Counted from the first letter of the stretch, positions 1,804 through 29,357 are shown. The stretch: 35,057 nt of DNA from Microcaldota archaeon (GCA_023248035.1 JAHFFJ010000009.1:1-35057); one strand, 5' to 3'. A program made the numbers and translations. Notes: generated by a model from the sequence alone, not told the origin.

Positions 1804-1842
1804 ATGTCCCTATCTTTAAGAGAGGTTATCTATGTCAGATGA
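1804..1842 (+). CDS. Putative 12-codon uORF (MSLSLREVIYVR) overlapping the top6B start
   Basis: Strong SD 'GGAGG' at ~1794-1798, ATG at 1804, TGA stop at 1840-1842, inside top6B. Confidence 0.35.
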   Translation: MSLSLREVIYVR

Positions 1843-3445
1843 AGTTTTCAAACAGTTCAAAGAGCACTCGGTAGCGGAATTCTTCAAAAAGAACCGACAG
1901 ATGCTTGGTTTTTCAGGAAAGGTTCGCTCACTCACAATGATAGTCCATGAACTTGTCACAAACAGCCTGGATGCATGCGAAGAAACAGGGATATTACCAG
2001 AGGTATTTGTCCAGGTAGAGGAATTGGGCACTGATCACTACCAGCTTACGATAAAAGACAATGGTCCAGGCATACCTAAAAGTCATCTTGGAAAAGCACT
2101 CGGCCAGATGCTTGCAGGAACAAAATTCCACCGCTATGTCCAACAGCGTGGGCAGCAGGGAATTGGAGCAGCAGCATGTACGATGTTTTCTTATATTACA
2201 ACAGGACAATCCACCAAGGCCATTTCTGCATGTAGTGGAAAAAAATTCACTGCGAACATAGCGATAGATTTTGTAAAAAATAAAGCAGTGGTAGAAGAGA
2301 TTGAGGAAGTTCCAACTGATGAGAATGGACTTACAGTAATTTCAGAATTCAAAGACGTGAAATACGAAAGGAGCAATTATGGGGTTTATGAATATCTTAG
2401 AAGAACTGCACTTGCAAACCCAAATTGCAGCATAACACTCATTGAACCAAATAAGCAAAGGGTTACTTTCCCGCGATCGGTGGAACAAAACCCCCCGAGG
2501 CCGGTGGAGATAAAACCGCACCCGCTCGGTATAGGTACGCACGATCTTCTTGAATTTGCAAAAAGAAGTAAGGAGAGTAAGAAAATATCCCCATTCCTTA
2601 CTGAAACTTTTGCGAGAATGAGTGCAGGAAAAGTTGAAGAGTTAAAAAATATGTTGCCAACCGTTGATTTTAACAAAAATCCATCTGATATGTCTTGGGA
2701 AGATGCTGAAGCAATTGTTAAGGCATTTGGTCAGGTAAAATGGATTGCACCAGCTACCGATTCCCTGGTGCCAATAGGCAAAACACAGGTGGAAGCTTCT
2801 TTTAGAAACATTTTCAATCCAGAAGTACTTGTCATAACAGAAAGGAGCCCCAAAGTTTATCGTGGGGGTATACCTTTCATGGTTGAAGTGGGTATTGCTT
2901 ATGGTGGCGGGGTGGCAGCAGCAGAGAAGAGGGGAGAGGTGATGAGATTTGCAAACCGCGTACCCTTGCTTTTTGATTCTGGTGGTTGTGCAATAACAGA
3001 AACCATAAAGACAATTGACTGGAAACGATATGATATCAAGAACTTCGATGAAGAACCTATAGCGGTATTGGTCAATCTTATCAGTGTTCATGTACCTTAT
3101 ACAAGTGCCGGAAAACAGGCTATATCTAATGAAGAAGATGTTATGGACGAGATAAAGTTCGCCATAATGGAAGCTTCAAGAAGCATACAAAAATACTTAT
3201 CTGGAAAACGGCGGGCAAATGAGATAGCAAATAAGAAAAAGGTCGTGACAAGGTACATACAGCAACTTTCAAGCGACCTTTCCATACTTTCTGGCGAAAA
3301 GAAGGATGACATACAAAAACGCCTTACAAAAATAATCGAGGATAAGTATGGTGGAGAGGAAGAACTAGCTCAAGGCGAAGGGAAAGGAAACGAAGAGGAA
3401 ACGGTTCCGACTGAAAAAGAGGAGGACGAAGAGAATGGCGAGTAA
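1832..3445 (+). CDS. top6B: DNA topoisomerase VI subunit B
   Basis: GHKL ATPase motifs 'LVHELVTNSLDACEE' and 'IKDNGPGIP', 'RGQQGIGAAA'; adjacent to subunit A. Confidence 0.97.
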   Translation: MSDEVFKQFKEHSVAEFFKKNRQMLGFSGKVRSLTMIVHELVTNSLDACEETGILPEVFVQVEELGTDHYQLTIKDNGPGIPKSHLGKALGQMLAGTKFHRYVQQRGQQGIGAAACTMFSYITTGQSTKAISACSGKKFTANIAIDFVKNKAVVEEIEEVPTDENGLTVISEFKDVKYERSNYGVYEYLRRTALANPNCSITLIEPNKQRVTFPRSVEQNPPRPVEIKPHPLGIGTHDLLEFAKRSKESKKISPFLTETFARMSAGKVEELKNMLPTVDFNKNPSDMSWEDAEAIVKAFGQVKWIAPATDSLVPIGKTQVEASFRNIFNPEVLVITERSPKVYRGGIPFMVEVGIAYGGGVAAAEKRGEVMRFANRVPLLFDSGGCAITETIKTIDWKRYDIKNFDEEPIAVLVNLISVHVPYTSAGKQAISNEEDVMDEIKFAIMEASRSIQKYLSGKRRANEIANKKKVVTRYIQQLSSDLSILSGEKKDDIQKRLTKIIEDKYGGEEELAQGEGKGNEEETVPTEKEEDEENGE

Positions 3446-4532
3446 TGATGCGATGAAGAAGCTCGAGCTTCTTGGTAAGAGTATGGTTAGCGAAGTAAAA
3501 AAGGGAGAAGGCCCCACTTTTGAAACTACACTAAGAACAAAAAGCAACACGATTTTCGATGAAGCGGTAGGCTGCCTCAGAACAGGAGATAAAAAAGAAG
3601 TCAGAAAATTCCTCAGTGTCGCCCAGGCAAGAACTTTCATGCAAACTGTTGCTATAGCAAACAAGACAAGGCAGTTTTTGAAGGAAGACCTACACACTTC
3701 AATCAGAGGTTTGTTCTACCAGCTAAAGTTCAGCCTTGGGGAAGATATAGATGAGGATCTTTTTACTGAGCAGTCGGAATCCAATGGACTTATTGAAGAT
3801 CTTGAGGTTGCACTCAAAATAAAGCGTGAAGACCTCCATCTTACAACCGACCGTAAAGGTTTTGTGGCAGGACCAATGACCATACTTGATAGGTTTGGTG
3901 GTGATGAAACTATAATTGACCTTGAAAAACAAGGCCGCAGTGGTTGGAGCATACCAAGCGATGTGGATAATGGCATGGAGATAACAAAACTCGATGCTGA
4001 TTATGTACTTGTAGTCGAGAAGGATGCCCTTTGGCAGAGACTTAATGAGGATAAGTTCTGGAAAAAAGAAAACTGCATACTTGTAACGCCCAAAGGCCAG
4101 TCCACAAGAGGAACGAGAAGGCTTCTTAGAAAACTTGCAGACCGAAAACTCCCAGTATACTGCCTTATGGATTGTGATGCTTGGGGATGGTACATTTATT
4201 GGACGATAAAAACCGGAAGCATGAACCTTGCTTATCTTGGGCGGGATTTTGCAGTTCCTGAAGCGAAGTTCTTAGGAGTGACCATGAGCGACATTGAAGA
4301 ATTCAGTTTTTTGGATAAGTTGACTATAAAGGCAAAAGAAGTGGATGTGAAAAGAGCAGAAGAAATGCTTGGTTATCCATGGATAAATCGCCATAAGGAC
4401 TGGGTTCATGAACTAAAACTTGTATTAAAGACCAAGAAGAAAATTGAGCAGGATGCACTCCAGGGGGAGAGACTTACTTTCGTTGGTGAGTACATAAATA
4501 ATAAGATTAAGAAAAAAGAATGGCTTTCTTAA
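3435..4532 (+). CDS. top6A: DNA topoisomerase VI subunit A (Spo11-like)
   Basis: Catalytic Tyr context 'TSIRGLFYQLKFSLGED', Toprim-like 'YVLVVEKDALWQRL' and 'LMDCDAWGWYIYWTIKTGS'; overlaps the top6B end by 11 nt. Confidence 0.97.
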   Translation: MASNDAMKKLELLGKSMVSEVKKGEGPTFETTLRTKSNTIFDEAVGCLRTGDKKEVRKFLSVAQARTFMQTVAIANKTRQFLKEDLHTSIRGLFYQLKFSLGEDIDEDLFTEQSESNGLIEDLEVALKIKREDLHLTTDRKGFVAGPMTILDRFGGDETIIDLEKQGRSGWSIPSDVDNGMEITKLDADYVLVVEKDALWQRLNEDKFWKKENCILVTPKGQSTRGTRRLLRKLADRKLPVYCLMDCDAWGWYIYWTIKTGSMNLAYLGRDFAVPEAKFLGVTMSDIEEFSFLDKLTIKAKEVDVKRAEEMLGYPWINRHKDWVHELKLVLKTKKKIEQDALQGERLTFVGEYINNKIKKKEWLS

Positions 4533-4594: not shown

Positions 4595-4689
4595 GTCAAC
4601 TGGCTCGCCCCCACCACCGCTAGGCAAGCACACGCTGTGCTTGCCGCGGACCGGTGGCATGCTCGCTTCGCTCGGGGGCTCGCGTTGAC
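4595..4689. repeat. GC-rich hairpin element with terminal inverted repeats, related to the left half of the 12952-13100 element
   Basis: Ends GTCAAC (4595-4600) / GTTGAC (4684-4689); outer stem CCACCG (4614-4619)/CGGTGG (4652-4657); inner perfect hairpin GGCAAGCACA-CGC-TGTGCTTGCC (4623-4645). Confidence 0.75.
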
Positions 4690-4691
4690 GA

Positions 4692-4827
4692 CTAATTGAA
4701 AAAATCTGACAGAGTCTTTTGCCCCTTTTTGATGCCGTTATTATTTGCATAATTTATTGCTCCATCAATGTTTCCATCACCCGCTGTTTTGCAGCAGTAG
4801 GCAGTGTCAAAAACGGATGGAATATCA
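4692..4827 (-). pseudogene. C-terminal coding remnant (reads ...ADIPSVFDTAYCCKTAGDGNIDGAINYANNNGIKKGQKTLSDFFN*)
   Basis: Open minus-strand frame ending in TAG at 4692-4694, running upstream into the GC-rich repeat; protein-like composition; no start codon of its own seen. Confidence 0.4.
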
Positions 4828-4905
4828 GCCCTTTGGGGGGTTTGGGCGGTGACGGACTACGGGGGGTCATCAGTTTGTACTAAGAAACCGCCCTTGGGCT
4901 GTCAT
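4816..4905. repeat. GC-rich foldable repeat, copy A2 (direct repeat of 13007-13100)
   Basis: TGGAATATCAGCCCTTTGGGGGGTTTGGGCGGTGACGGACTACGGGGGGTCATC...CTAAGAAACCGCCCTTGGGCTGTCATT; outer stem CAGCCC/GGGCTG; inner GGGGGGTTT/AAACCGCCC with one mismatch. Confidence 0.85.
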
Positions 4906-4943
4906 TTTAATTTATTTTTTTATTTACTGTTTTTATGATTCTT

Positions 4944-7568
4944 TTATTTTTTTGGCGGCTCATCAGGAAGATAGTAAGTCCCGCTTTGAGGAACTTTTGG
5001 AACTCCAGGTGCAGTACACAAATCATGATTATATTGCCCAGAGCCATCGGCTTTGCAAAGCTCATCTGCAAGCTTTTTACCATCAGGACAGAAATTGTTG
5101 GAACATCCCTGGCTGAGGTAAAGGAAGGCATTAACTTTTTCAGCACCAGGATCATGGGCAGGCGAAAGGAATGGGACGCCACAGTCATGAATATACTTTA
5201 TGATATCAGTATAACCATAGCAGTAGTATGGTGGTTCGGATCGAGGATTACCACCTTTGCATTTAGTCTTATCATCTTTACCCTTTTCTGAACTGCAATA
5301 TTTTGAATCGATTGCACGACTATCAGCAAAGCCCTGTGCCCAGCACTCCCCATTGGAAAATCCGCTTGAGCAGCCAGGCTTAACTTTGTTATAGTCTGAA
5401 GATCGTGTATTTGAATCCCAGAAACCAGCATATTTATTACCTGCAACATAGGCTGCAAAAAGACTATTGGCATCGATATTGCTTGCAGACCAGCCAAGAA
5501 GACCTTGGTGATCACTTACCCATTTCCTTGAATCTTTAAGCATGCGCTCGATTTTTAATGTTCCAAGACAGGCGGAATCATCGGGATTAAATGGATTGAA
5601 TTTTGGATTACATCCACCTTTTTTGATTGCATCAAGGCTATCTGCAGTAACTGCTTTGCCTTTCCAGAAACCTGATTTTTCAAGTACCTTCCACGAAGGG
5701 CCATCCTGATTATCCGTATTGACTGCACTTGGCCAGAATGTGTATGGTGGTTCTATAGTCTGCATCAAGCCCATAGCACACCATCTCCAGTCGATTTTTT
5801 TACCTGGGGAGGGTGTTACTGCATTTGGAAGCAATGATGGATCGCAAAAACCTGCAGGATCGTAAATCTCATCATAAGCACTAGAATAACATTCACTATT
5901 ACCCGAACCATCAGCAGGGAAACAACCAGCATTAGGATGACTGGCCATGTATTCTTTTGAACAAACTTTGGAAGCTGCACATTGAGTAAAATTACTTTCA
6001 GTAAGCACAAAAGCACGGACAAGCATTGGGTCAAGGTTGCGAGCATTTGCCCATTGATCGATTTCCGGGAACCCAGTACAATAAAGTTCAGGGGGAGTTC
6101 CACCCTTATTGCTCAATGCAAAAGGAAGGTCATTGGTTTTGATTTTAGTAAGAAGGCAGGCATCGCAGCTGAAGATTTTTGGAACAGGAGACTGAATTTC
6201 AGATGCAAGTGGTTGCATAATATCTTTTCCATTAAAATTAGTCCCGCCTATGAAATCAAGCTGGGTATTTTGATTGCAAACACCACCAGACTGACTGGAG
6301 AAAATTATCCCAGTTCCTCCTGAAGGATTGATTTTGGAACCCCGGCTAACTGCAGTATAAGACTGGCAACCCCCATACCATGCTTTAAGGCGCGCTTCAC
6401 TTCTTGCCACCCCACAATCGGCACAGCCAAGAGGATTGGTGAAACTATATGTTCCCGTAGTATTGAAGGAGTACGGAGCAATCCCCACCACCCCGCGTTT
6501 TTGGAGGCTGGTAATGGCAAGTGGGAAAAATCCGCCATAACCTGAAACCACCGCTGATTCGCTCCAGGTGCATGACTTATCTATATCTTGGCCACCGTTA
6601 TCAAACATTACATAAGGTATTATGGTCGGTTTACCCCAAGTATAAAGTGAATAGGATGAGAAAACAGTTGCCTGCTGACGAATGTTTGAGGCATCACAGG
6701 TATGAACGTAATTATTGTTTATCCCATAGGCAACAAGATCAACTTTGTCTTTATCAGTGCCAAGTTCATTCATAACTGCATCAAGTGCCGCCACATCACC
6801 CATTTTTATTCCGACTGCAACCATGCAGTGGATTTGGTTATTGGCCCGATCATTACCGCATTTTGAATCTATGGAACGTACCTGGTCAGCGATCTTTGAT
6901 GTGAGACCTTTATCCACCATACTTTTATCAAAATCCATTTCAGTAACTACGACAACCGGGCCAACCGGGCCATCAGAAAGTTTACCTAGGAAAAGATCCT
7001 TACCTTCTTTTCCAAGGGTGGTGGCAATTTTATCAGTCTGGGTTATGTTTATGTTTTCACCATGGCTGTAAAGTATGTAAACTGGGATTACATCCTTACT
7101 TAAGAAACACATTGTTCTTGCTGCATCTGCTGTTGCATAAGGAGCATCTTTGTTACCAACAAGCCATTGCACAGACATGCTAAGTCTATCAGAACAATAG
7201 GGATTTGCACTCGAAAAATCACTTAATGTTGGGCCCTGACCCACCATCATCTGACGGATGGACAAATCAGGTTTGACTTTACCTGTCATCAGTTCCGCCG
7301 TCTTTTCAACTGTGCATTCTTTTTCAAAATAACAATAGCCACCTATTAAGTTGTTAAGAGGACCAAAAATGTTGGTGCCGTTTTTACACACCATGCACCA
7401 GCAGCTGCCAGTTGGACAGAGTGGGATCTTATCGGTATCGGAAATTGCAACACGTGCTATACCGGATTTGTAATCATTGCTATAGAGGGAAGAACTGTTA
7501 CCAATGCGTTGAAGGCAACCGGCCATAAGAACGAGGCCAAAAAAGATTAGGAGAAGGTAGATTCTCAT
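4944..7568 (-). CDS. Large Cys-rich secreted lipoprotein with an SLT (lytic transglycosylase-like) domain
   Basis: Signal peptide + lipobox 'LLLIFFGLVLMAGC'; SLT-like 'WANARNLDPMLVRAFVLTESNF ... MGLMQTIEP'; many Cys. Confidence 0.7.
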   Translation of the reverse strand: MRIYLLLIFFGLVLMAGCLQRIGNSSSLYSNDYKSGIARVAISDTDKIPLCPTGSCWCMVCKNGTNIFGPLNNLIGGYCYFEKECTVEKTAELMTGKVKPDLSIRQMMVGQGPTLSDFSSANPYCSDRLSMSVQWLVGNKDAPYATADAARTMCFLSKDVIPVYILYSHGENINITQTDKIATTLGKEGKDLFLGKLSDGPVGPVVVVTEMDFDKSMVDKGLTSKIADQVRSIDSKCGNDRANNQIHCMVAVGIKMGDVAALDAVMNELGTDKDKVDLVAYGINNNYVHTCDASNIRQQATVFSSYSLYTWGKPTIIPYVMFDNGGQDIDKSCTWSESAVVSGYGGFFPLAITSLQKRGVVGIAPYSFNTTGTYSFTNPLGCADCGVARSEARLKAWYGGCQSYTAVSRGSKINPSGGTGIIFSSQSGGVCNQNTQLDFIGGTNFNGKDIMQPLASEIQSPVPKIFSCDACLLTKIKTNDLPFALSNKGGTPPELYCTGFPEIDQWANARNLDPMLVRAFVLTESNFTQCAASKVCSKEYMASHPNAGCFPADGSGNSECYSSAYDEIYDPAGFCDPSLLPNAVTPSPGKKIDWRWCAMGLMQTIEPPYTFWPSAVNTDNQDGPSWKVLEKSGFWKGKAVTADSLDAIKKGGCNPKFNPFNPDDSACLGTLKIERMLKDSRKWVSDHQGLLGWSASNIDANSLFAAYVAGNKYAGFWDSNTRSSDYNKVKPGCSSGFSNGECWAQGFADSRAIDSKYCSSEKGKDDKTKCKGGNPRSEPPYYCYGYTDIIKYIHDCGVPFLSPAHDPGAEKVNAFLYLSQGCSNNFCPDGKKLADELCKADGSGQYNHDLCTAPGVPKVPQSGTYYLPDEPPKK

Positions 7569-7593
7569 TAGATAATAATGGCTTCATTGAGAA

Positions 7594-7602
7594 TTTAAAT
7601 AC
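7594..7602 (-). promoter_or_regulatory. TATA box for the 4944-7568 gene
   Basis: Reads GTATTTAAATTC on the minus strand, ~25 nt before the ATG; suggests leaderless transcription. Confidence 0.55.
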
Positions 7603-7864
7603 TTGCATCTTTTGGAGTAAAATTTGAACTACACCAAACCAATTAAATCGTACTAAATAATTACGCGCTCGAAAAAGATCGAATAACTTAGATGTTGACC
7701 GTAACTAATTCGTTTGTGTCATTTTGTTGTTTTGGTATAGGTTTATTAGTATCGATAATAACAACTAAGGATTTTTTAGACCAAAAACTTGGAAATAGAA
7801 CTATATTGAATAAAGAACTAGGTTGAATAAAAAATTATGAAAATGAAGTACCCAATCGCAGCAA

Positions 7865-8022
7865 GCTGTGGGGTATATGACCCAGGAACCGCTACGGGGG
7901 AGCATTTGGGGGGAGGTCACACGGTTTGGCTAGTCAAAATATCCGTTCTTTATATTACTCTAGCCTATTGTGCAGGAGGAACCTCAAACTGGGGAGGGGG
8001 TGCTCCCCCTCCGCGGTTCGGA
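7865..8022. ncRNA. GC-rich highly structured intergenic island (candidate ncRNA or 3' structure)
   Basis: Stems: GGGT/ACCC (7871-7883), AACCG/CGGTT (7887-7891/7922-7926), GGCTAG/CTAGCC (7928-7933/7960-7965) with inner AATAT/ATATT, GAACC/GGTTC enclosing GGAGGGGG-TGCT-CCCCCTCC (7993-8012). Confidence 0.4.
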
Positions 8023-8023
8023 A

Positions 8024-11000
8024 TTAAGCGATAACCTGCCCATTACAGGCTGAAGTGGTGCACCTGCTTCCACGAAGACGGGTGGTGTGGCACAAAGGAC
8101 ATTCGCTGATACGTGCAACGCTGTAACGGAGCATCGAAGTCCGATGAGCAACATCCTGACCCCAGCGATTAAGACCATCGCCAAAGCTCCAACCATGACC
8201 CTCTTTGTGGACAGATACAACTTTAGTTAAAATGTCTTTGAGTTTCAACTTGTGGATTGGCCAGAGAACTGGACTTGCATGTGCAAATATATCATTCTGG
8301 AATATTCCATACCCTCTTTGCTCGCTGTTTCTCTGTATTGCAAGTGCTTCTGCCTGAACCGTTCTTGGAATAATATTGTTGAGCGAGGCATTTATCACGT
8401 CCTTATCATATGCAAACTGACCTATCTGCTCAGCTACCAGTCTTGATGCCATACGAGAATGAAGAAGCCTATCAAGCCGGTAACTTCCAACTGATTCGGC
8501 AGGATTGATGTTACCAAGACGAGCTTCTACCATCGCACCTTTTAGGTCAGAGAAATCCTGTGCACTTCCTGAAAGACCGGAAAGTACAGCATTGCCACCA
8601 GTATATCTTTTAGCTGCACTACTCTCAACGACATTCATTTTCACAAGGGCTCGTGAAAGCCAGCTGTCTGACCACCCCGAAGCAAATGGATTGAAAATTG
8701 CCTGCATTGCCTCCCTTAGACGGGGGGAGCTGTGTTGCATCGAACGAAGCGGATCTCCAGTACTATCAAACCTGCCTGGAGCACCATGAATTGCTTTTTG
8801 TGAAGTGGAGAACATGTTCTGATAGAATCTTGCTATGCTGGTATTGATGGGGAGTGAGAAACCATATATGGCATCGAAGTTAATCTTCTCGCCTGGAGTA
8901 AGGAATGCTCCAACATGAGCACGATAATCAAAGTTACCAGCAGGACCCATGTAGAATCTGGAAACATCAGACTGGTGGGTACCCATAGAGCTTGAAAGAC
9001 CCCAAGGATTACGATCAAGAGTCCATTGAGAGGCCTGTTCCCTCGCACTATTTTTCATTGCAAATGTGTAGTATGCCCTTTTTTCAGCATCACTAAGCTT
9101 GCCCCAGCGCCCGGTTTCTATACCTTCGACAAGGGTATGGGAATGGATACTTGCTGCGGCTGAAACTGCGGATATATCATATGAAGATGAAAGTATTCCC
9201 CTTCCTTTTGGTGTATCAGCAGCAATAGTAGCTACTTTAGAGATATAATCTCCAATAGCCATACCAATATCTCGAAGTGGACGGGTTACTCTAGCGAGGC
9301 TGTGCCCATCTTCTCCAAAGAACCGGAATGGTGTTGGTGCAAGAGGAGTAATATTGCGCCTTGCTTCCACGGTAACACCGCTTTGCTCCCAATAGCGACC
9401 ATAATCATGAGTAGCACTTGCGGATTGCCAGAGAACGGCTGCAAGTACAGCATGTTTGGCAAAGCTGTAAGTACCAGACTTGGCCCATTGGGTGGTATTA
9501 TCCAGGAAAGCAGTCCATTTGTTTGGGTCTTTTGATCGTTGAACTTCGGCGTATTGACGAGCAAGATCATCTCTTCCTTCAAATTTAACTGCAACATCTT
9601 CAGGAACAAATGGACGTTTTACCCCTTTCTCATCCCTAAGGGTAGCTGCTCCAGCCATTATACTGTCACGATCACTTAGATGCATACCTGGAGTATAGGG
9701 AACGTAAGTACCATCATTGAGTTTTACAAGTGCACGGCTGGATGAGGCAACATCATCATAGGTTACTTCACGAGACATTACTGCACGATATTCCTTATCA
9801 TGTTTTGTGAGTAGAGTTGCAAATTCAGTAAGGTGTTTTGGATTGGTTACATCGAGCTTGCTAAGGAACATCCGCTCGGGGTGATTGCTTGCAAGTCCTT
9901 TATCATCAAATGCCTGCATGAGCATAGATTTAGCCTGCTCAATTGTTTGCCTTGCAGTTTCATGAGTGGTACCATAGGCATTGTGTGCAAACTGTGAACC
10001 AAAGCTGCGCTCGGTATCTGCAAGGAAAAGTTTTTTGACATAAAGATCTTTTTGGAGTGATATCTCTTCTGCAGCACTTCTTGTAGCTGAACCTGGAAGA
10101 CGTTTTGCTTCTGCTGCAATCTCAGCATCATATGCACCAACATGAGCACGTCCGCCATATTTGCCATTTGCAAAGTGTGATATACCAAAGTATTCTCGCT
10201 CATTAAATCCAGCGAAGAAATGCCTTTTCATATCAACATAGAAGGCACCGCGAGGAGCATCGAGTTCAAGATCGGATGAACGATAGATGGGAAGACCAGT
10301 AACTGGATCTTTGGTCATTGATTTTTGTAGAGTACCACCATAACGAAAATCAACCAGCTCTTCGATTGAAGCCTGCCCTACTTTTTTGCCCTTGGCTTTT
10401 TCAAAGAGTATTTCACCTTCTGGTGTAACAAGGCCTACAAATGCATCGTGAGCCATTTTCGCTACTGCTTTAAGCTGAGCTGCATTACGCTGAGATTCGG
10501 GAAGGTGTTCCATTTGTTTGGAATTATCACCAAGGCCAGCAAAACGGTTAACGTTATTTACATAAGCACCAAGAAGTTCTTCACGTATACCACCCCGAAG
10601 ATAGCCATTTTCGCCATCCCAAACAACTGTTCTAAGAACTCTAAGTTTCCATGCTTCGCTAACGGTAAGGCTTTCACCACCCACATGGCAGATGTATGCA
10701 TCATCATTATGAACGCTTTTTTGTGCAGCCATGCGTATGGTGTTCTCGCTTTCTAGCTTCTGGAGAAGAGTTAGGAATTTTACGTGCTCGCCTGCAACTG
10801 AGGTTTCTATGGTCTGAACTCTATCTGCAACAGAGATCATACGACCATCGATATAGGCACCAATTGCATGTGATTCTGCCATTACAGTAAGTGCATGAAG
10901 CTTTTCTATTCCAGTAAATGATGTGTTTGCAAGGATAGTTTTCATCTGTGCTTCTACTGCTGCAATTTCAGCAGACTGATGGTAATTTGAGCGGCCTAGG

Positions 11001-12829
11001 ATATCAACAGATACACCATTAATCTTTAGGGTTTTATGACCCATACTGAGAATTTCTTCCTCATTAAGATTGAAGTTAATGCCCATTTTCTTATAGACCT
11101 GACCTATTACATAGACCATTTGATCGCGGGTAATTTCATCCCGAAGAGTCATGTAGAGGTGGGCCATATCGGCATTTACATCGTGCATTCTGCCCTGGAT
11201 AGACACTGTGGATGGTTTTTTATTTAGCTGATCATATGCAAGTGCTGCAGCCCCTGAACTTTTGGCAGCATATTCGAGGTTCTTCATTGAACGCTCGCCA
11301 CCAATAAGTTCCATGGTGGCTCGACCGGTTCTGCGTGCAAGGTGAGGGAGTTCAGTTACCGCAGCACGGGCAATATCTTTCATGATTATCCCGCTTCGGA
11401 CAACTGAATCAGGAGTGGGCATTACAAGTCCACCGACAGTTGCAAATCTCCCCACACCAACAAATTTATTGAGTGCAGAAGTAACTTTGATGTAACCTGA
11501 CCTTCTTTGACCTGGAGCAGTTGATTTTGCAGTAAGTACTTCCAGTCGTTTTAGAACTTCGTTTTCATTAAGGTAGTTCTTTATCGTCATGCCCATAAGG
11601 CCTTCTCGACCCCCACGTTTTTCAAGGGCAGAAACTATCTCTGAAACTTTCTTGTGATCAGCACTATCGTAATTGTATGGAAGTTTGGTAAGTGAGTATA
11701 GTTCAGCTGCACTCATTCCGATCATGTGACCCCCAGTAACAATTGCAGTTGCAATCTTTTTACCATCAGCGATATCCCCAGCAGCACGATCACCTGCTGT
11801 ACCTTTTTGTGATTTGACTGCTGATTCTAGCCTTGAGAGTTCTGAATCTCCCCTATAGCGACCTTTAAGTACTGCAGTAGATGCTGAAACAGCAGTTGCA
11901 GCTGCAGAAAGTTTACCCTTTATTGTTCTACTCATTTCAGTGTAACCAAATGGTGCGAGTACCTGACCACCTGCAGCCACCCCTTTTGGTGCTGGTAGTT
12001 TTGGTGTGGTTATATCAAGAAGGGAGACTGGTGATTTTCCTGAAAAGTAAACTGATGCTACTAGTAAACCCATGATAAGGAATATTCCAATGCATGGCAA
12101 TGCACCCGGACTGGCACATTGAAGGTCATTACCATTTACAAAATTCCCAGTATGTACACATTCCCCACCACTCCCAGCAAGTGAGGCTATGAAGTTGTTT
12201 ATCTGGCTGTTGAATAATGTCGCTGGGGAAACCTGAGCATTACTGTATTGGTATTCAGAATAACTTGAACTGATATCCTGACCGGCTTGGGGAAGGAATG
12301 TTACCTTAAAGCTAGTACGCGAGCTACCTTCAACCGCATTTGAAAGATCGCATTTAACATAGTAATAGGTACCTTCAGTACCATCGGGCTTTTTGGCAGT
12401 GCCTTCTTTAGTTGCAATAATATCTTTGCAGATTTCAACCGGGCTCCAACCACCCTGGTTTCCATTTGCTAGAGGGTTAAAGTATTGTACTAGAAAATGA
12501 GCATCTTTGAGTGATTCCAGAGTGATCTTATATTCTGAGGACTGGCTGGTCATCTCAGTGGCCTTATTGAAAATGCAGGTTTGGACGGGAATGGAATTTT
12601 GAGCAATGCAATCTTTTGTGATCTGTTCCATTATCTCCCTGATCGTGGTTCCTGTTTGACTGGTTGCAGGTTCGAAAACAAGGAGGCTTACTTCGATTAC
12701 TTTTCCATCCCCCTGCGGGGTTATAACAACCTGGCTTTCCTTTAGATTTTGATCTCCAAATAAGCCAGCGGCAAAAGTGAAACTAAGCAAGAGAAGAAAA
12801 AACATCAGTGTGTTTTTTATGGAGAACAT
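8024..12829 (-). CDS. Giant 1601-aa membrane-anchored protein of unknown function with C-terminal Cys4 (zinc-knuckle-like) motif
   Basis: Signal peptide 'NTLMFFLLLLSFTFAAG', TM 'CIGIFLIMGLLVASVYF' near residue ~250, long soluble region, C-terminal 'CPLCHTTRLRGSRCTTSAC'. Confidence 0.8.
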   Translation of the reverse strand: MFSIKNTLMFFLLLLSFTFAAGLFGDQNLKESQVVITPQGDGKVIEVSLLVFEPATSQTGTTIREIMEQITKDCIAQNSIPVQTCIFNKATEMTSQSSEYKITLESLKDAHFLVQYFNPLANGNQGGWSPVEICKDIIATKEGTAKKPDGTEGTYYYVKCDLSNAVEGSSRTSFKVTFLPQAGQDISSSYSEYQYSNAQVSPATLFNSQINNFIASLAGSGGECVHTGNFVNGNDLQCASPGALPCIGIFLIMGLLVASVYFSGKSPVSLLDITTPKLPAPKGVAAGGQVLAPFGYTEMSRTIKGKLSAAATAVSASTAVLKGRYRGDSELSRLESAVKSQKGTAGDRAAGDIADGKKIATAIVTGGHMIGMSAAELYSLTKLPYNYDSADHKKVSEIVSALEKRGGREGLMGMTIKNYLNENEVLKRLEVLTAKSTAPGQRRSGYIKVTSALNKFVGVGRFATVGGLVMPTPDSVVRSGIIMKDIARAAVTELPHLARRTGRATMELIGGERSMKNLEYAAKSSGAAALAYDQLNKKPSTVSIQGRMHDVNADMAHLYMTLRDEITRDQMVYVIGQVYKKMGINFNLNEEEILSMGHKTLKINGVSVDILGRSNYHQSAEIAAVEAQMKTILANTSFTGIEKLHALTVMAESHAIGAYIDGRMISVADRVQTIETSVAGEHVKFLTLLQKLESENTIRMAAQKSVHNDDAYICHVGGESLTVSEAWKLRVLRTVVWDGENGYLRGGIREELLGAYVNNVNRFAGLGDNSKQMEHLPESQRNAAQLKAVAKMAHDAFVGLVTPEGEILFEKAKGKKVGQASIEELVDFRYGGTLQKSMTKDPVTGLPIYRSSDLELDAPRGAFYVDMKRHFFAGFNEREYFGISHFANGKYGGRAHVGAYDAEIAAEAKRLPGSATRSAAEEISLQKDLYVKKLFLADTERSFGSQFAHNAYGTTHETARQTIEQAKSMLMQAFDDKGLASNHPERMFLSKLDVTNPKHLTEFATLLTKHDKEYRAVMSREVTYDDVASSSRALVKLNDGTYVPYTPGMHLSDRDSIMAGAATLRDEKGVKRPFVPEDVAVKFEGRDDLARQYAEVQRSKDPNKWTAFLDNTTQWAKSGTYSFAKHAVLAAVLWQSASATHDYGRYWEQSGVTVEARRNITPLAPTPFRFFGEDGHSLARVTRPLRDIGMAIGDYISKVATIAADTPKGRGILSSSYDISAVSAAASIHSHTLVEGIETGRWGKLSDAEKRAYYTFAMKNSAREQASQWTLDRNPWGLSSSMGTHQSDVSRFYMGPAGNFDYRAHVGAFLTPGEKINFDAIYGFSLPINTSIARFYQNMFSTSQKAIHGAPGRFDSTGDPLRSMQHSSPRLREAMQAIFNPFASGWSDSWLSRALVKMNVVESSAAKRYTGGNAVLSGLSGSAQDFSDLKGAMVEARLGNINPAESVGSYRLDRLLHSRMASRLVAEQIGQFAYDKDVINASLNNIIPRTVQAEALAIQRNSEQRGYGIFQNDIFAHASPVLWPIHKLKLKDILTKVVSVHKEGHGWSFGDGLNRWGQDVAHRTSMLRYSVARISECPLCHTTRLRGSRCTTSACNGQVIA

Positions 12830-12850
12830 GATAGTATCGGACGTTTGGCA

Positions 12851-12860
12851 GTATTTAAAT
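12851..12860 (-). promoter_or_regulatory. TATA box for the 8024-12829 gene
   Basis: ATTTAAATAC on the minus strand, ~22 nt upstream of the ATG at 12829. Confidence 0.6.
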
Positions 12861-12894
12861 GAGTATGGTTACATAGTAAAGTAAAAATACAAAA

Positions 12895-12935
12895 AATACA
12901 AAATTTGTATTAAAATTGTGTTTGCTAAACACAAT
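12895..12935. repeat. Two adjacent AT-rich palindromes upstream of the 1601-aa gene promoter
   Basis: AATACAAA-A-TTTGTATT (12895-12911) and ATTGTGTTT-GCT-AAACACAAT (12915-12935). Confidence 0.6.
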
Positions 12936-12951
12936 ATACCATAAAAAAACA

Positions 12952-13100
12952 GTCAAATGCTCGCACCCACCACCGCTAGGCAAGCACAGCGTGTGCTTGC
13001 CGCGAAACAGTGGAATCCAGCCCTTCGGGGGGTTTGGGCGGTGACGGACTAAGGGGGGTCAGAAGTATGGGCTAAGAAACCCCCCTTGGGCTGTCATTGA
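12952..13100. repeat. GC-rich foldable repeat, copy B (full-length)
   Basis: GTCAAATGCTCGCACCCACCACCGCTAGGCAAGCACAGCGTGTGCTTGCCGCG... followed by CAGCCCTTCGGGGGGTTTGGGCGGTGACGGACTAAGGGGGGTC...AAACCCCCCTTGGGCTG; matches 4595-4657 and 4816-4905 in the same orientation. Confidence 0.85.
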
Positions 13101-13139: not shown

Positions 13140-14171
13140 GTGATTATTATAAGCGAACTGATACGTGGACCAAATCCATTTGCAATAGAATTTGGAGAGT
13201 TACTTGGGCGCAAGGAAGAAATGCAGCTTTTCAGAGGACTTTTAAGTTCGACCACATCGGGGAACTCAGAGCTGATGGTAGTGATGGGGAGTTTTGGAAT
13301 TGGTAAAACTGCACTTTTTAGGGCGTGGAAGGTTGAGGCTGAAAAAAATGGGCTTAGAACTTTTTATGTAAGGGTAAATGATGGTGATGATAGTGAGAAT
13401 GTAGTTGAAAAAATCGTCCAGAGTGGAAGATTTGAGAATGCGATGAATTTGGATTCCATTATTATGGCAATTGAAAAACAGTCAGAATTTGGTGCAGTCA
13501 TTTTTTTAGATGACTGTGAAAAAATGAAAGCAGAGGGGAAAAATAAAACTTTGGGGGGAACGCTTGGCCAGTTCTTTGAGAGGGTTAAACTTACTGGAAA
13601 ACATGTTTCTTTGGTTCTTGGTTCTTTGGTAGATTTGGACATTGTGGGGGATAAGAAGATTTTACTTAAACCTTTTAGTGAACATGATGTACGGGAGTTT
13701 GTAGAGAAAGCACTCAAAAAAGAGATCAGGATGGGGGAGGAATGCCTGACCACTATAACTTCAGATAGTAGTGGAAATCCGAAAATGATCAGAACCATAT
13801 GCAGATGCATATATGAAAAATTGCGGGAGAATGAAAAAGTTATAAACAAAGGCCATTATCTCGAGCAACTATCCTACATAATGAGCACACTTTCTTCAGA
13901 GTGGTTTGGGCAGTTATACCAGATACCTGAAGCTGAACGTAAAGTACTTTACCAGATTGCTATTAATGAGAACCTGCCGATTAAAGAAATTGCTCAGAAA
14001 TCAAAAATGAATAACGGACCTGCAAACACACTTGCACAAAGGCTCCTCCAGCGCGGCCATATTGTAAGGCTAGGGAGAGGAAGGTACAGGGTTTTCTCAA
14101 GGCTTTATGGAAAATATGTGATCGAAAGGTTCAATCTGCAATTAACCAGTCATTCTCGAAAACGCGAATAA
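13140..14171 (+). CDS. AAA+ (Orc1/Cdc6-like or archaeal ATPase) protein with C-terminal winged-helix-like region
   Basis: Walker A 'GSFGIGKTALF', Walker B-like 'GAVIFLDDCEKM', C-terminal HTH-like 'LPIKEIAQKSKMNNGPANTLAQRLLQRGHIVRLGRGRYRVFS'; GTG start. Confidence 0.75.
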   Translation: MIIISELIRGPNPFAIEFGELLGRKEEMQLFRGLLSSTTSGNSELMVVMGSFGIGKTALFRAWKVEAEKNGLRTFYVRVNDGDDSENVVEKIVQSGRFENAMNLDSIIMAIEKQSEFGAVIFLDDCEKMKAEGKNKTLGGTLGQFFERVKLTGKHVSLVLGSLVDLDIVGDKKILLKPFSEHDVREFVEKALKKEIRMGEECLTTITSDSSGNPKMIRTICRCIYEKLRENEKVINKGHYLEQLSYIMSTLSSEWFGQLYQIPEAERKVLYQIAINENLPIKEIAQKSKMNNGPANTLAQRLLQRGHIVRLGRGRYRVFSRLYGKYVIERFNLQLTSHSRKRE

Positions 14172-14646
14172 AATCACCCACCGAAGGTGAATTTTTTATT
14201 ATTACTGATGCCTCGCGATTTTTATAGAGTGCGGAGTTGCTCAAGTTGTGGGAACCAACAAGTACTGAAATGCGATCGATTATTATGAATTTTGCATGGG
14301 TGAGTTTGAAGGATTGGCTTGCATAGCGTATGGAATAACCTTTGGAGAGGAGTTCGTGATAGATTTGGCTATTTTCACCACCAATAACGTTTGGCTCGAT
14401 TATAATCCGGACTAAAACACCACGCCCACGTGCACGTTCGAGAGCCTCTACCACATCACGCGAACTGAATGTGTATATTTCTATGTCGATTGATTTTTGT
14501 GCGCTATCGACAAATGAAATAATTTTTGCCCCATCCTCTGGTGAAAAAATTGGAGTGACTGAAGGTGCAAAGAAAGATGGCGATAAAAGATGGTATATTA
14601 GAATGCCAATGGCTATGCCTAGAACTAAACTCATCCCCCGATTCAT
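14131..14646 (-). CDS. Membrane-anchored phospholipase D-family nuclease-like protein
   Basis: N-terminal TM; HKD motif 'HAKFIIIDRISVLVGSHNLSNSAL' and 'SIDIEIYTFSSRDVVEALERARGRGVLVRIIIEP'. Confidence 0.88.
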   Translation of the reverse strand: MNRGMSLVLGIAIGILIYHLLSPSFFAPSVTPIFSPEDGAKIISFVDSAQKSIDIEIYTFSSRDVVEALERARGRGVLVRIIIEPNVIGGENSQIYHELLSKGYSIRYASQSFKLTHAKFIIIDRISVLVGSHNLSNSALYKNREASVIIKNSPSVGDFIRVFENDWLIAD

Positions 14647-16573: not shown

Positions 16574-17041
16574 ATGGCAGAATTAGGTAAAAATGCTTAC
16601 ATCAAGCAGATGATAATATATTTTGGAAACCAGGATTACCAGGTTGCATATACTTTTGGAAAGGAATTTGCCCAAAAATTCCCTGATGAAATGGTTGCGC
16701 ACTTTTTCCTTGCAAAGGCAGCTTATTGGACAGGTAATCATCAGGAGGCAGCTTCAGAAGGACGAAAAGCATTCAATCTTTCCACTGTTCCAGAAGATAT
16801 GCTTGCTACTGCAATTATAGCAGGTACCGCCTATTATGAACTTAGAGAATACAGTAAAGGCCTGGAAATGTTAAATGGAATATCAAAAAACAAAACCAGT
16901 GAAGAGCTTGAAACGTTATTATTCTTATTTAACCTTGCAATAAAGGATGAGAAAGCGGCACTCGTGCACGTAGAAAAATTATATAAGATGAATAAAAAGA
17001 CTGCCGAAGATTTGATGCTTAAAGTTATTGGCGGTAAATAA
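16574..17041 (+). CDS. TPR-like protein, paralogue of 17249-17713
   Basis: Shares a KNAYI..Q / AY...KEF....PDE / RKAFNLS / AYY.L.EY.KG pattern with the 17249 ORF. Confidence 0.7.
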   Translation: MAELGKNAYIKQMIIYFGNQDYQVAYTFGKEFAQKFPDEMVAHFFLAKAAYWTGNHQEAASEGRKAFNLSTVPEDMLATAIIAGTAYYELREYSKGLEMLNGISKNKTSEELETLLFLFNLAIKDEKAALVHVEKLYKMNKKTAEDLMLKVIGGK

Positions 17042-17248: not shown

Positions 17249-17713
17249 TTATTTTAGTTTAAAAAAAGGAGTGCAAAAGTTTCTTGCAGCTTTAGCATTA
17301 AAATCAATCATTTTTTGAAGATGTTTGGATGCCTTATCTGGATTCTTCATTGCCGTATGGAAAAGAAAGGTGAACTGCTCCAGGTCCTCATCAGCTAGAA
17401 TATTTTCAAGCGCTTCCAATATTGATATACCCTTTTGATATTCTTTTAGTTGATAATATGCAAGACATGCTCGAAGACCACTGACTCTCATGTCATCTTT
17501 GTTTTTTGAAAGATTAAATGCCTTTCTTGCAGCCGTAGCAGATTCTTCGTATTTACCAAGAAAATAAGCTGACTGAGAAAAAAGATAATTCGAAATTACT
17601 TCATCAGGATAAAGCGAAGTAAACTCTTTTGCGATTTTATATGCTTCTGAGTAACAGTTATTTTTAAGAAAAGTTACTGATTGTGATATATATGCATTCT
17701 TTGAAAATGTCAT
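17249..17713 (-). CDS. TPR-like protein, paralogue of 16574-17041
   Basis: See paralogous motif pattern; convergent arrangement. Confidence 0.7.
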   Translation of the reverse strand: MTFSKNAYISQSVTFLKNNCYSEAYKIAKEFTSLYPDEVISNYLFSQSAYFLGKYEESATAARKAFNLSKNKDDMRVSGLRACLAYYQLKEYQKGISILEALENILADEDLEQFTFLFHTAMKNPDKASKHLQKMIDFNAKAARNFCTPFFKLK

Positions 17714-21849: not shown

Positions 21850-23127
21850 TTAGCGGGAAAGTATTTCTTTTGCAAGTTCATCAGCCGCACGGATAACTTC
21901 ACCTTCATTAACAGTAAGTATTTTTCTCTCTTGCATAACAACCTTGCCATTGATTATTACATCAGAAACATTCTGTGGCCCGGCAGCATAGATGATATTT
22001 GCAACAATATCATGTTCGGGAAACATATTAGGCCCACGTTCAAGCAACACAATGTCTGCAAGTTTTCCTTTTGAAAGTGAACCTCCATTGACTCCTAGGG
22101 CTTTTGCACCATTTATAGTAGCAAAATCAAGTATTCTTTGATTGGAGATAACATCGGCCTTCCAGTAATGGTGTTTTTGCAGAAGGGCGGCCATTTTCAT
22201 GGTTTCAAACATATTTAGTGAATTGTTGCTTGCTGCACCATCAGTACCCAATGTTACTGTGGCTCCGGCTTTATCAAGTTCAGATATTTGGCAGATTCCA
22301 CCTGTAGCGAGCTTCATATTGCTAATTGGGCAACTCGCGACATTAAGATTACGTGAAGCTGCAAGAACCATTTCTTTTTTAGTTAACCATCCACCATGGG
22401 CAAAAATGGAATCGCTATCCATCAAACCGATTGAATCCAGATATTCGTATGGGTATTTCCCAGTTTTATTTAATATTTCAAATATCTCTTTTCGGGTTTC
22501 ACTTACATGGATCTGGTACTTGAGTTTTTTTCTCTTTGCAAGCTCTTTGGTCTTTAGAAGAAGTTCTTCTGAGCAGGTATATGGGGCATGGGCAGAAACT
22601 GATGGGAGAAGAGTATCACCGGAATATTGTAATGAGGATTCAATTTCCCGCATAATTTTTGGAATCCATTGAGGGTGATTAAAATCCATGATCCCACGTG
22701 AGATTATTCCACGCATTCCCACTTCGTTTGCAGCAGAAAAAATCCCGTGGGTATCATGAAGGCACATCTCGGCAAATGAAGTAGTACCGCTTTTGATCAT
22801 TTCACAAAAAGACAATCTTGCAGCAATTCCTGCATCCTTAGCAGTTTGCCTTGCTTCGATGGGCCAGATTTTTTCCTCAAGCCAACGATGGAGTGGCAGG
22901 TCTTCACCATAGCCTCGGAATATGGTCATACCGACATGAGTATGTGCATTGATTAGGCCAGGAATGGCAATTTTTCCGGTTGCATCTATAAGATATTCAG
23001 GATTATTAGACTCGATTTTTTCTCCTATTTCTGATATTGAATTGCCATCAATCCTGATATCGCCCTTTATGATTTCTCTTTGGTCGTTTTGGGTTATTAT
23101 GGTAGCATTTTTGATGATAATGGACAT
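21850..23127 (-). CDS. mtaD: Amidohydrolase, 5-methylthioadenosine/S-adenosylhomocysteine deaminase-like
   Basis: 'GLINAHTHVGMTIFRGYGEDLPLHRWLEEKIWPIEA', 'IHVSETRKE', 'FAHGGWL', 'LGTDGAASNNSLNMFETMKMAALLQK'. Confidence 0.88.
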   Translation of the reverse strand: MSIIIKNATIITQNDQREIIKGDIRIDGNSISEIGEKIESNNPEYLIDATGKIAIPGLINAHTHVGMTIFRGYGEDLPLHRWLEEKIWPIEARQTAKDAGIAARLSFCEMIKSGTTSFAEMCLHDTHGIFSAANEVGMRGIISRGIMDFNHPQWIPKIMREIESSLQYSGDTLLPSVSAHAPYTCSEELLLKTKELAKRKKLKYQIHVSETRKEIFEILNKTGKYPYEYLDSIGLMDSDSIFAHGGWLTKKEMVLAASRNLNVASCPISNMKLATGGICQISELDKAGATVTLGTDGAASNNSLNMFETMKMAALLQKHHYWKADVISNQRILDFATINGAKALGVNGGSLSKGKLADIVLLERGPNMFPEHDIVANIIYAAGPQNVSDVIINGKVVMQERKILTVNEGEVIRAADELAKEILSR

Positions 23128-23195: not shown

Positions 23196-23768
23196 ATGAC
23201 ATTAGTTAGGACAAGGGAGATACAATTAGAATATCCAATGTCCGAGGCAGATAGAGTTTTTTCTGGTTCTCTTACATCAAGATTCATAGCTTATTTTCAG
23301 AACACAGAAAGTGAAATAGCAATGGATAGGCGAAAAATAAGAAACGCCCTACATGCAAATGTTAGCGATAAAAAAGCGTTATTTGTCACGTGGGGGGAAC
23401 AAAAAAGTGAAGAAGAAGTACGAGCACATGTTGTTCGTGTAGAAATTGCAACATTAGAAAGAATACCTATTTTCGATATAGAAATGTTAGCTCGATTTGC
23501 TGGTCCCGAGAGTGTGAGAAAATTAAAACAGGACATGCTAGAACTCCTGGAATTTGAAACTAGACAAGACGATTATACTGAACTTGTTTTAAGAGCATTA
23601 AAATTTGCCGACTATAAAGTTCCGGATGGAGTCAATTGGAGTTATTTGGCTTTGAAGTTTCCCGGAATTGGAGCTGAGCAGCCATTTGAACTTGACATGG
23701 AAGGTCATGTAGAGGTAATGGAGCTAAATAAAGAAGTTAGTAAATTTGGACCACCAAATATCAGTTAG
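23196..23768 (+). CDS. Hypothetical protein, paralogue of the 28605 and (distantly) 23846 genes
   Basis: Shares 'FDIEMLARFAGPESVRKLKQD' with the 28605 gene, with near-identical DNA across that block. Confidence 0.7.
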   Translation: MTLVRTREIQLEYPMSEADRVFSGSLTSRFIAYFQNTESEIAMDRRKIRNALHANVSDKKALFVTWGEQKSEEEVRAHVVRVEIATLERIPIFDIEMLARFAGPESVRKLKQDMLELLEFETRQDDYTELVLRALKFADYKVPDGVNWSYLALKFPGIGAEQPFELDMEGHVEVMELNKEVSKFGPPNIS

Positions 23769-28604: not shown

Positions 28605-29357
28605 ATGATTATACAGAAGCTTATGTTTCGACCTGAGGAAAAAATACCTGAGGAAAAAATAAAACCAATAACATATAAACTCGGACTTAACGACAATGTC
28701 GGACTTAAAGACAATGGCTTTAATGGCACCCAAGAATTAGTTGATGGTATTACAAGATTTATAGAAATGCAGGGCAACGTGCGTTCGGATAGAAGAAGGA
28801 TGCTTTACCTTGATGTGGATCCTGCAAGAGCTTTTTTTGTAGCCTGGGAGGCCCGAAAAACTGAGAAAGAAGTAAGGTCACACATTGTCCAGACAGAAAT
28901 TGGATTTGGAACTAATGCAGCTGTATTCGATATAGAGATGTTAGCCCGATTTGCTGGTCCTGAGAGTGTGAGAAAATTAAAACAGGATATACTAAAACTC
29001 TTGGAGGATGAAAATGAATCAGCAGATGATTATGTCGAGCGTTTATTGCGTACATTAAAATTCGCTGATGAAAAAGTTCCAGGTGGAGTTGAATGGGCAG
29101 ATTTGGCAATAAAGTTCAAAGTAGATGTTCGTGAACCATTTCGACCTACAGAAGCGGAACAAAAAGAACTTAAAACTCTTGAAAGCACAATTGCTAAATA
29201 TGGACCCCCAAACATTGTAAGTGATGACGGCAATATGGCATTAATTAGTATTTTAGCTAGAATGGAATATAATAGTTTTAGAGACCCTCCAATTAAACCA
29301 TTATTTGGATATGAAAAAATAAGTGGACTAACATTGAATTTAACTCCTAACGACTAA
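28605..29357 (+). CDS. Hypothetical protein, paralogue of 23196-23768
   Basis: Shared core 'FDIEMLARFAGPESVRKLKQD' and conserved upstream region; N-terminal micro-repeats PEEKIPEEKI and LGLNDN-VGLKDN. Confidence 0.7.
   Translation: MIIQKLMFRPEEKIPEEKIKPITYKLGLNDNVGLKDNGFNGTQELVDGITRFIEMQGNVRSDRRRMLYLDVDPARAFFVAWEARKTEKEVRSHIVQTEIGFGTNAAVFDIEMLARFAGPESVRKLKQDILKLLEDENESADDYVERLLRTLKFADEKVPGGVEWADLAIKFKVDVREPFRPTEAEQKELKTLESTIAKYGPPNIVSDDGNMALISILARMEYNSFRDPPIKPLFGYEKISGLTLNLTPND

Follow-up and report, generated by a model that had tools for sequence, protein, structure and literature searches.

We analysed a 35,057-nucleotide (nt) stretch of DNA from a Microcaldota archaeon (GCA_023248035.1 JAHFFJ010000009.1:1-35057), hereafter the window, together with the genome to which it belongs (G000; an assembly of 1.17 Mb in 83 contigs) and the genomes of other Micrarchaeota. 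Two large genes on the minus strand of the window, one encoding a giant bitopic membrane protein of 1601 residues (BIG; 8024–12829) and the other a lipoprotein of 874 residues with an SLT (lytic transglycosylase, lysozyme-like) domain (4944–7568), form a stable, vertically inherited operon that is not mobile. The two proteins are probably subunits of a chromosomal cell-envelope machine of Micrarchaeota that works in the manner of a type IV secretion system (T4SS) or of the Ced system. No T4SS or similar contact or secretion machine in Micrarchaeota was found in the open-access literature, and this membrane machine has apparently not been described.

The BIG and SLT lipoprotein operon

Both open reading frames proposed in the initial annotation, which was made from the sequence of the window alone, were confirmed on the minus strand, with BIG as the first gene of the operon and the SLT lipoprotein as the second. 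The arrangement was compared across 37 micrarchaeal loci that contain BIG, one of them in the window. In 34 of these, the lipoprotein gene lies downstream of BIG on the same strand, with one intervening gene in two of the 34. Two of the remaining three loci are contig ends, and the third (G049) has a broken lipoprotein reading frame at the expected place. BIG homologs are present in 53 of 59 relatives. Among 196 Micrarchaeota genomes, 64 carry BIG and 65 carry the lipoprotein; both genes occur together in 58, the lipoprotein alone in seven and BIG alone in six. The contigs in GTDB that encode BIG relatives include some labelled Candidatus Micrarchaeota and Candidatus ainarchaeum. Within the window's own family (f1; the other micrarchaeal families considered here are numbered f5, f7, f8, f11, f12, f13 and f17), the pair usually lies between a convergent topoisomerase VI and a divergent AAA ATPase. 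The lipoprotein-only genomes (G043, G050, G052, G055, G057, G168 and G180) all belong to f8, and BIG was not detected in them.

Hydropathy divides BIG into a signal peptide, approximately 215 residues outside the cell, one transmembrane (TM) segment, and approximately 1,300 residues that are predicted to be cytoplasmic. The predicted extracellular domain (residues 21–240; 12110–12769, minus strand), delimited by hydropathy and alignment, contains two invariant cysteines, C134 and C160. The most conserved stretch of the protein comprises the TM segment and the signature PCxGxFLILGLLLASMYFSGKSPxSLLDITTPRLPxPK (residues 244–282; 11984–12100, minus strand). A zinc-ribbon-like set of cysteines at the C-terminus (C1577, C1580, C1590 and C1595; 8045–8101, minus strand) is ~77% conserved among 37 homologs. 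BIG matched no family in Pfam or NCBIfam, and comparison with solved structures gave no convincing match, just spurious ones to designed helical repeats and to part of an adhesin.

The SLT lipoprotein begins with a lipobox (G17-C18) whose cysteine is invariant in homologs. Approximately 30 cysteine positions are conserved, which suggests a disulfide-rich exported protein. Structure prediction was applied to this lipoprotein and to one of the polytopic proteins described below. The AlphaFold2 (AF2) model of the lipoprotein (pLDDT 83, pTM 0.84) contains a predicted TIM barrel resembling those of glycoside hydrolases (GH; clan A-type) at residues ~100–410 (6339–7271, minus strand), limits that were taken from predicted secondary structure. 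In Foldseek searches this region matched glycosidase TIM barrels (GH26, GH53, beta-glucuronidase and others) with E values of 9e-6 to 5e-4. Conservation points to E210 (93%) and D277 (96%) as candidate active-site acids.

The SLT domain (residues 494–716; 5421–6089, minus strand) was assigned from Pfam, profile comparisons and motifs. Its motifs are E524 in the sequence ES, GLMQ at residues 600–603, and A-Y-x-A-G at residues 709–715. E524 is retained in 25 of 28 homologs (89%), and GLMQ or near variants and A-Y-x-A are retained in most, as expected of the GH23/SLT family. Pfam SLT matched the window lipoprotein with an E value of 5e-4 and was detected in seven of the 28 homologs, and profiles of the region match MltC and EtgA. 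The region is confident in the AF2 model; the Foldseek matches listed for the model are TIM-barrel glycosidases. The predicted role of the lipoprotein is to cleave sugars in the wall of another cell. The gene is duplicated in tandem in one genome (G009:C5:57123-62220, L080), and separate proteins of 400–490 residues that match the SLT half alone are encoded on G009:C7, G015:C16 and G006:C32.

Tandem polytopic proteins, a second set and an ATPase

In f5, f7 and f11 loci, polytopic membrane proteins, most of them 300–520 residues long, are encoded in a tandem array that is divergent from BIG. These arrays form hexads, that is, six paralogs in tandem. The hexad family, which has no match in Pfam, is present in 177 of the 196 Micrarchaeota genomes. 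G163, a genome with both BIG and the lipoprotein, contains two hexad clusters, and G060, G065, G073 and G099 contain one main cluster each. In G041, BIG lies near a hexad, and the second set described below and an ATPase share a single operon.

G000 itself contains two hexads, on contigs C70 and C16. The second is followed by a gene for a 1454-residue lipoprotein and adjoined by one for a 1077-residue bitopic protein (BIG2). This system-2 lipoprotein matched nothing in Pfam or NCBIfam. Lipoproteins of the second set and the SLT lipoprotein have the TIM-barrel region in common (hhalign 98%, E 2.4e-13), and the TM signature of BIG recurs in BIG2 (hhalign 96%, E 1e-9) and in a giant protein of the f17 operon. 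Because both the TIM-barrel region and the TM signature are shared, G000 carries two paralogous sets.

Outside the window's order, in f12, f13 and f17, the hexad is followed in one T4SS-like operon by two proteins with two TM segments each (2-TM proteins), an ATPase of 500–520 residues, further genes, and a 2-TM protein of ~790 residues. The gene for topoisomerase VI B comes after this operon in f12 and f13. In two f17 genomes the operon ends in giant proteins, one of which has the BIG signature, and small proteins encoded upstream of the hexad weakly match T4SS_pilin (2.8e-5) and TrbC/VirB2 (1e-4). Giants of ~1,900 to >3,000 residues close the T4SS-like operon at G086:C5 (L257, L258), G089:C3 (L259) and G099:C1 (L255), with one giant each in L258 and L259 bearing the BIG TM signature. 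The ~790-residue protein was considered as an ancestor of the lipoprotein or of BIG and rejected, having no similarity to either. In the window's genus the ATPase is encoded apart from the pair: in G005 it is accompanied by a 2-TM protein and by a single protein of the hexad family, and in G000 it lies on contig C22. A hexad-family match with two TAA stops also lies beside a 2-TM gene in G000 (C37:996-2051, L174), possibly a pseudogene or joined neighbours.

The ATPase matched the NCBIfam profiles CedB (101 bits), VirB4 CD1110 (87 bits) and HerA (50 bits), scored above the cut-off for AAA_10 in Pfam, and aligned with VirB4 of R388 and with PrgJ in hhalign (64–76%). It appears to be VirB4-like at the superfamily level only.

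Type IV secretion, Ced-like transfer and other readings

The initial annotation had guessed at an envelope-spanning secretion or cell-contact apparatus. In outline the guess is supported: tandem polytopic proteins are associated with both BIG and the SLT lipoprotein, and BIG-type proteins in another family share an operon with the HerA/VirB4/CedB-like ATPase. By analogy with T4SSs, the hexad would provide the membrane platform, and the HerA/VirB4/CedB-like ATPase (G000:C22) would be the motor. BIG would serve as a cytoplasmic scaffold or loading arm, anchored by its one TM segment and exposing a small domain outside. The lipid-anchored TIM-barrel/SLT protein would lie outside, directed toward a partner cell, where local cleavage of glycan strands would enable the machine to make contact. 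The window's order has a second, paralogous set, with a TIM-barrel lipoprotein and with BIG2 as the giant. The computational results establish the stable operon, the architecture of the domains, the association with the hexad and the homology between the two sets, whereas assembly into one complex, the direction and substrate of transport, and the target glycan are all inferred.

Several observations weigh against this proposal. In NCBIfam the ATPase falls far short of the equivalog cut-offs, and among solved structures HerA helicases resemble it most closely, a VirB4-like protein ranking fourth. As candidates for VirB6, the hexad proteins gave <1% in hhalign against VirB6 of Ti and R388 and against PrgH, single-sequence references that afford low sensitivity. 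By fold, the hexad protein, mostly long helices, had no Foldseek match in the PDB. Neither VirB3 nor VirB8 matched the 2-TM proteins in hhalign. The pilin-like matches are below gathering scores and were found in f17 only, G000 not having been searched for them. The Pfam SLT score of the window lipoprotein is 20.0 against a cut-off of 21.3, and the SLT motifs are absent in some relatives (L054, L060), so that the TIM barrel is the core of the protein and the SLT domain an accessory. Finally, the BIG/SLT pair, the two hexads and the ATPase are spread over separate contigs in G000, and the physical association of the parts is therefore something that we infer. Membership of the T4SS family is not established.

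The micrarchaeal set resembles T4SSs (VirB/VirD4, including the monoderm and Patescibacteria versions; PMC12102498) in having an ATPase of the HerA/VirB4 superfamily, polytopic membrane proteins, pilin-like proteins (in f17), and an SLT hydrolase as a putative analogue of VirB1. It differs in lacking detectable VirB6 or VirB3 homology, in having its polytopic paralogs in tandem sets of six, in the giant size of its bitopic proteins, in its large lipoproteins with a TIM barrel, and in being chromosomal and phylum-wide. Tandem VirB6 paralogs of Rickettsiales T4SSs (PMC2653234; PMC7648143) are likewise polytopic and several in number, and some of them carry long extensions, but no sequence relation to the hexad was found, and the hexad is archaeal with six members per set. 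The nanohaloarchaeal SPEARE and other giant surface proteins (PMC10266531) are also giant DPANN proteins with a single anchor, proposed as parts of T4SSs; in contrast to these, BIG has no detectable ATPase domain, and the bulk of it is predicted to be cytoplasmic rather than an Ig-like ectodomain. Pacearchaeota and Woesearchaeota have large proteins with a murein-transglycosylase domain (PMC8204110; PMC9723730), DPANN surface proteins with SLT domains for which action on bacterial walls has been proposed, whereas the Micrarchaeota lipoprotein has a GH-like TIM barrel and a fixed operon with BIG.

We tentatively consider it possible that the envelope machine is of an undescribed kind and mostly independent of T4SSs, built from a six-paralog membrane platform, giant bitopic arms and large surface TIM-barrel lipoproteins and driven by an ATPase of the HerA/VirB4 superfamily. 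One order would have a duplicate of it, equipped with a lipoprotein that cuts walls for contact with another cell.

The Ced/Ted DNA-import systems (PMC9905601) are, as here, chromosomal and archaeal, and CedB and CedD rank among the NCBIfam profiles that fit the ATPase best; the micrarchaeal set differs in having a glycan hydrolase and giant proteins. A reading in which this machine serves for the import of DNA or its exchange among micrarchaeal cells, as Ced/Ted would, while the hydrolase merely loosens surface glycans, draws on the rank of CedB and CedD as the top NCBIfam profiles and on the near-universal chromosomal presence, which would suit a housekeeping exchange system, but HerA-type ATPases are widespread, and we regard this reading as unlikely. 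To our knowledge, Ced includes no SLT hydrolase or giant protein, which also counts against it.

A further reading, which we consider improbable, is that the set is not a translocator at all. It would then be a complex for the structure or biogenesis of the micrarchaeal cell surface, and the lipoproteins would be hydrolases that scavenge glycans as food for the cell. The hexad and the giants are without detectable relation to any secretion family, and shorter SLT-domain proteins occur alone elsewhere in some genomes, as free enzymes would. However, the hydrolase is conservedly coupled to a protein with 1,300 cytoplasmic residues and to tandem polytopic proteins, and in other families the operon also encodes a translocase-type ATPase.

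The dispersed repeat and other features of the window

Direct GC-rich repeats flank the gene pair, as initially annotated. Positions 4826–4906 and 13018–13098 are 90% identical over 81 nt, and the related left halves at 4603–4660 and 12959–13016 are 86% identical over 58 nt. The copy beside BIG (12952–13100, plus strand) is compact, 149 nt long and unrelated to the operon. The other copy (4595–4906, plus strand) is long and consists of a 5' module (4595–4660), a spacer and a 3' module (4818–4906). A coding remnant of 46 residues, terminated by a stop, overlaps its spacer (4832–4695, minus strand), in agreement with the initial annotation. In general the repeat has three parts: a 5' module containing a palindrome-like hairpin of 23 nt, a spacer that varies in length, and an 81-nt 3' module that ends in CATT and is strongly structured (fold z = -4.15). 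A related C-terminal peptide of 43–46 residues (IPSVFDTAYCCKT...LSDFFN) is encoded on the opposite strand in the spacer of two copies, with 74% identity; the coding remnant in the window is this peptide. Rfam contained no match for the repeats.

Searches of G000 gave 11 matches to the 81-nt unit and 24 to the 149-nt version, fragments included. The copies outside the window lie on contigs C2, C38, C42, C45, C56, C60, C73 and C76; copies sit within intergenic space or at its margin, by unrelated genes, and several are at contig ends. The repeat is a dispersed, structured intergenic element with ~10 copies in G000. Of 16 genus-mates, nearly all of which have the gene pair, 15 have no copy and one has a single partial match; the repeat is species-specific and possibly a non-autonomous element.

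These results dispose of the initial suggestion of a mobile or recombining module. Because the 81-nt unit has 11 matches in G000, beside unrelated genes, the two repeats in the window do not mark the boundary of a cassette. A cassette bounded by direct repeats is extremely improbable, since the flanking of the pair by two copies is set against ~10 copies elsewhere in G000 without the pair (a finding that the initial annotation had itself named as contrary to mobility), genus-mates that keep the pair at the same locus without repeats, and the absence of any integrase or transposase family among the scanned neighbouring genes. The repeats are not confined to the ends of the pair, and neither empty sites nor different loci in relatives were found. 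Integration associated with a tRNA was rejected, there being no tRNA in the window.

The near-identical promoters noted initially are real in that TTTAAAT(A) lies at -31/-30 of the two start codons, but these are ordinary archaeal TATA boxes. The box of the SLT lipoprotein (TTTAAAT on the gene strand) is at -31 from the ATG (7594–7601, minus strand), and that of BIG is at -30 (12852–12859, minus strand). TTTAAAT also occurs at -30 of the window genes 1092–1697 and 21850–23127, and TTTAAATA has five occurrences in the window, where 5.2 would be expected. The GC-rich island reported between the two genes exists (~7860–8022); elsewhere it has just two 30-nt partial matches, and it was ruled out as a third repeat because it is single-copy.

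The convergent neighbour of the pair is topoisomerase VI (subunit B, 1832–3445; subunit A, 3435–4532; plus strand), identified from Pfam and synteny. Divergent from BIG is a Pfam AAA_16/ATPase_2-type ATPase with a winged helix (13140–14171, plus strand), found by synteny in the same position beside BIG in 18 other f1 loci. A small, secreted or anchored PLD-like phosphodiesterase is encoded at 14131–14646 (PF13091, 8e-29) and often adjoins BIG within the family. The window also encodes a pair of paralogous ~155-residue proteins in opposite orientation (16574–17041, plus strand; 17249–17713, minus strand) and two paralogs of 190 and 250 residues that belong to one sequence cluster (23196–23768 and 28605–29357).

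Micrarchaeota are widespread DPANN archaea, and this gene set, near-universal in the phylum, takes up a notable share of genomes of 0.8–1.5 Mb. BIG, the SLT lipoprotein, the hexad and the ATPase are now named targets for studies of the interaction between these cells and their partners, including whether the archaea that carry the SLT lipoprotein engage walled cells, either bacteria or archaea with pseudomurein.

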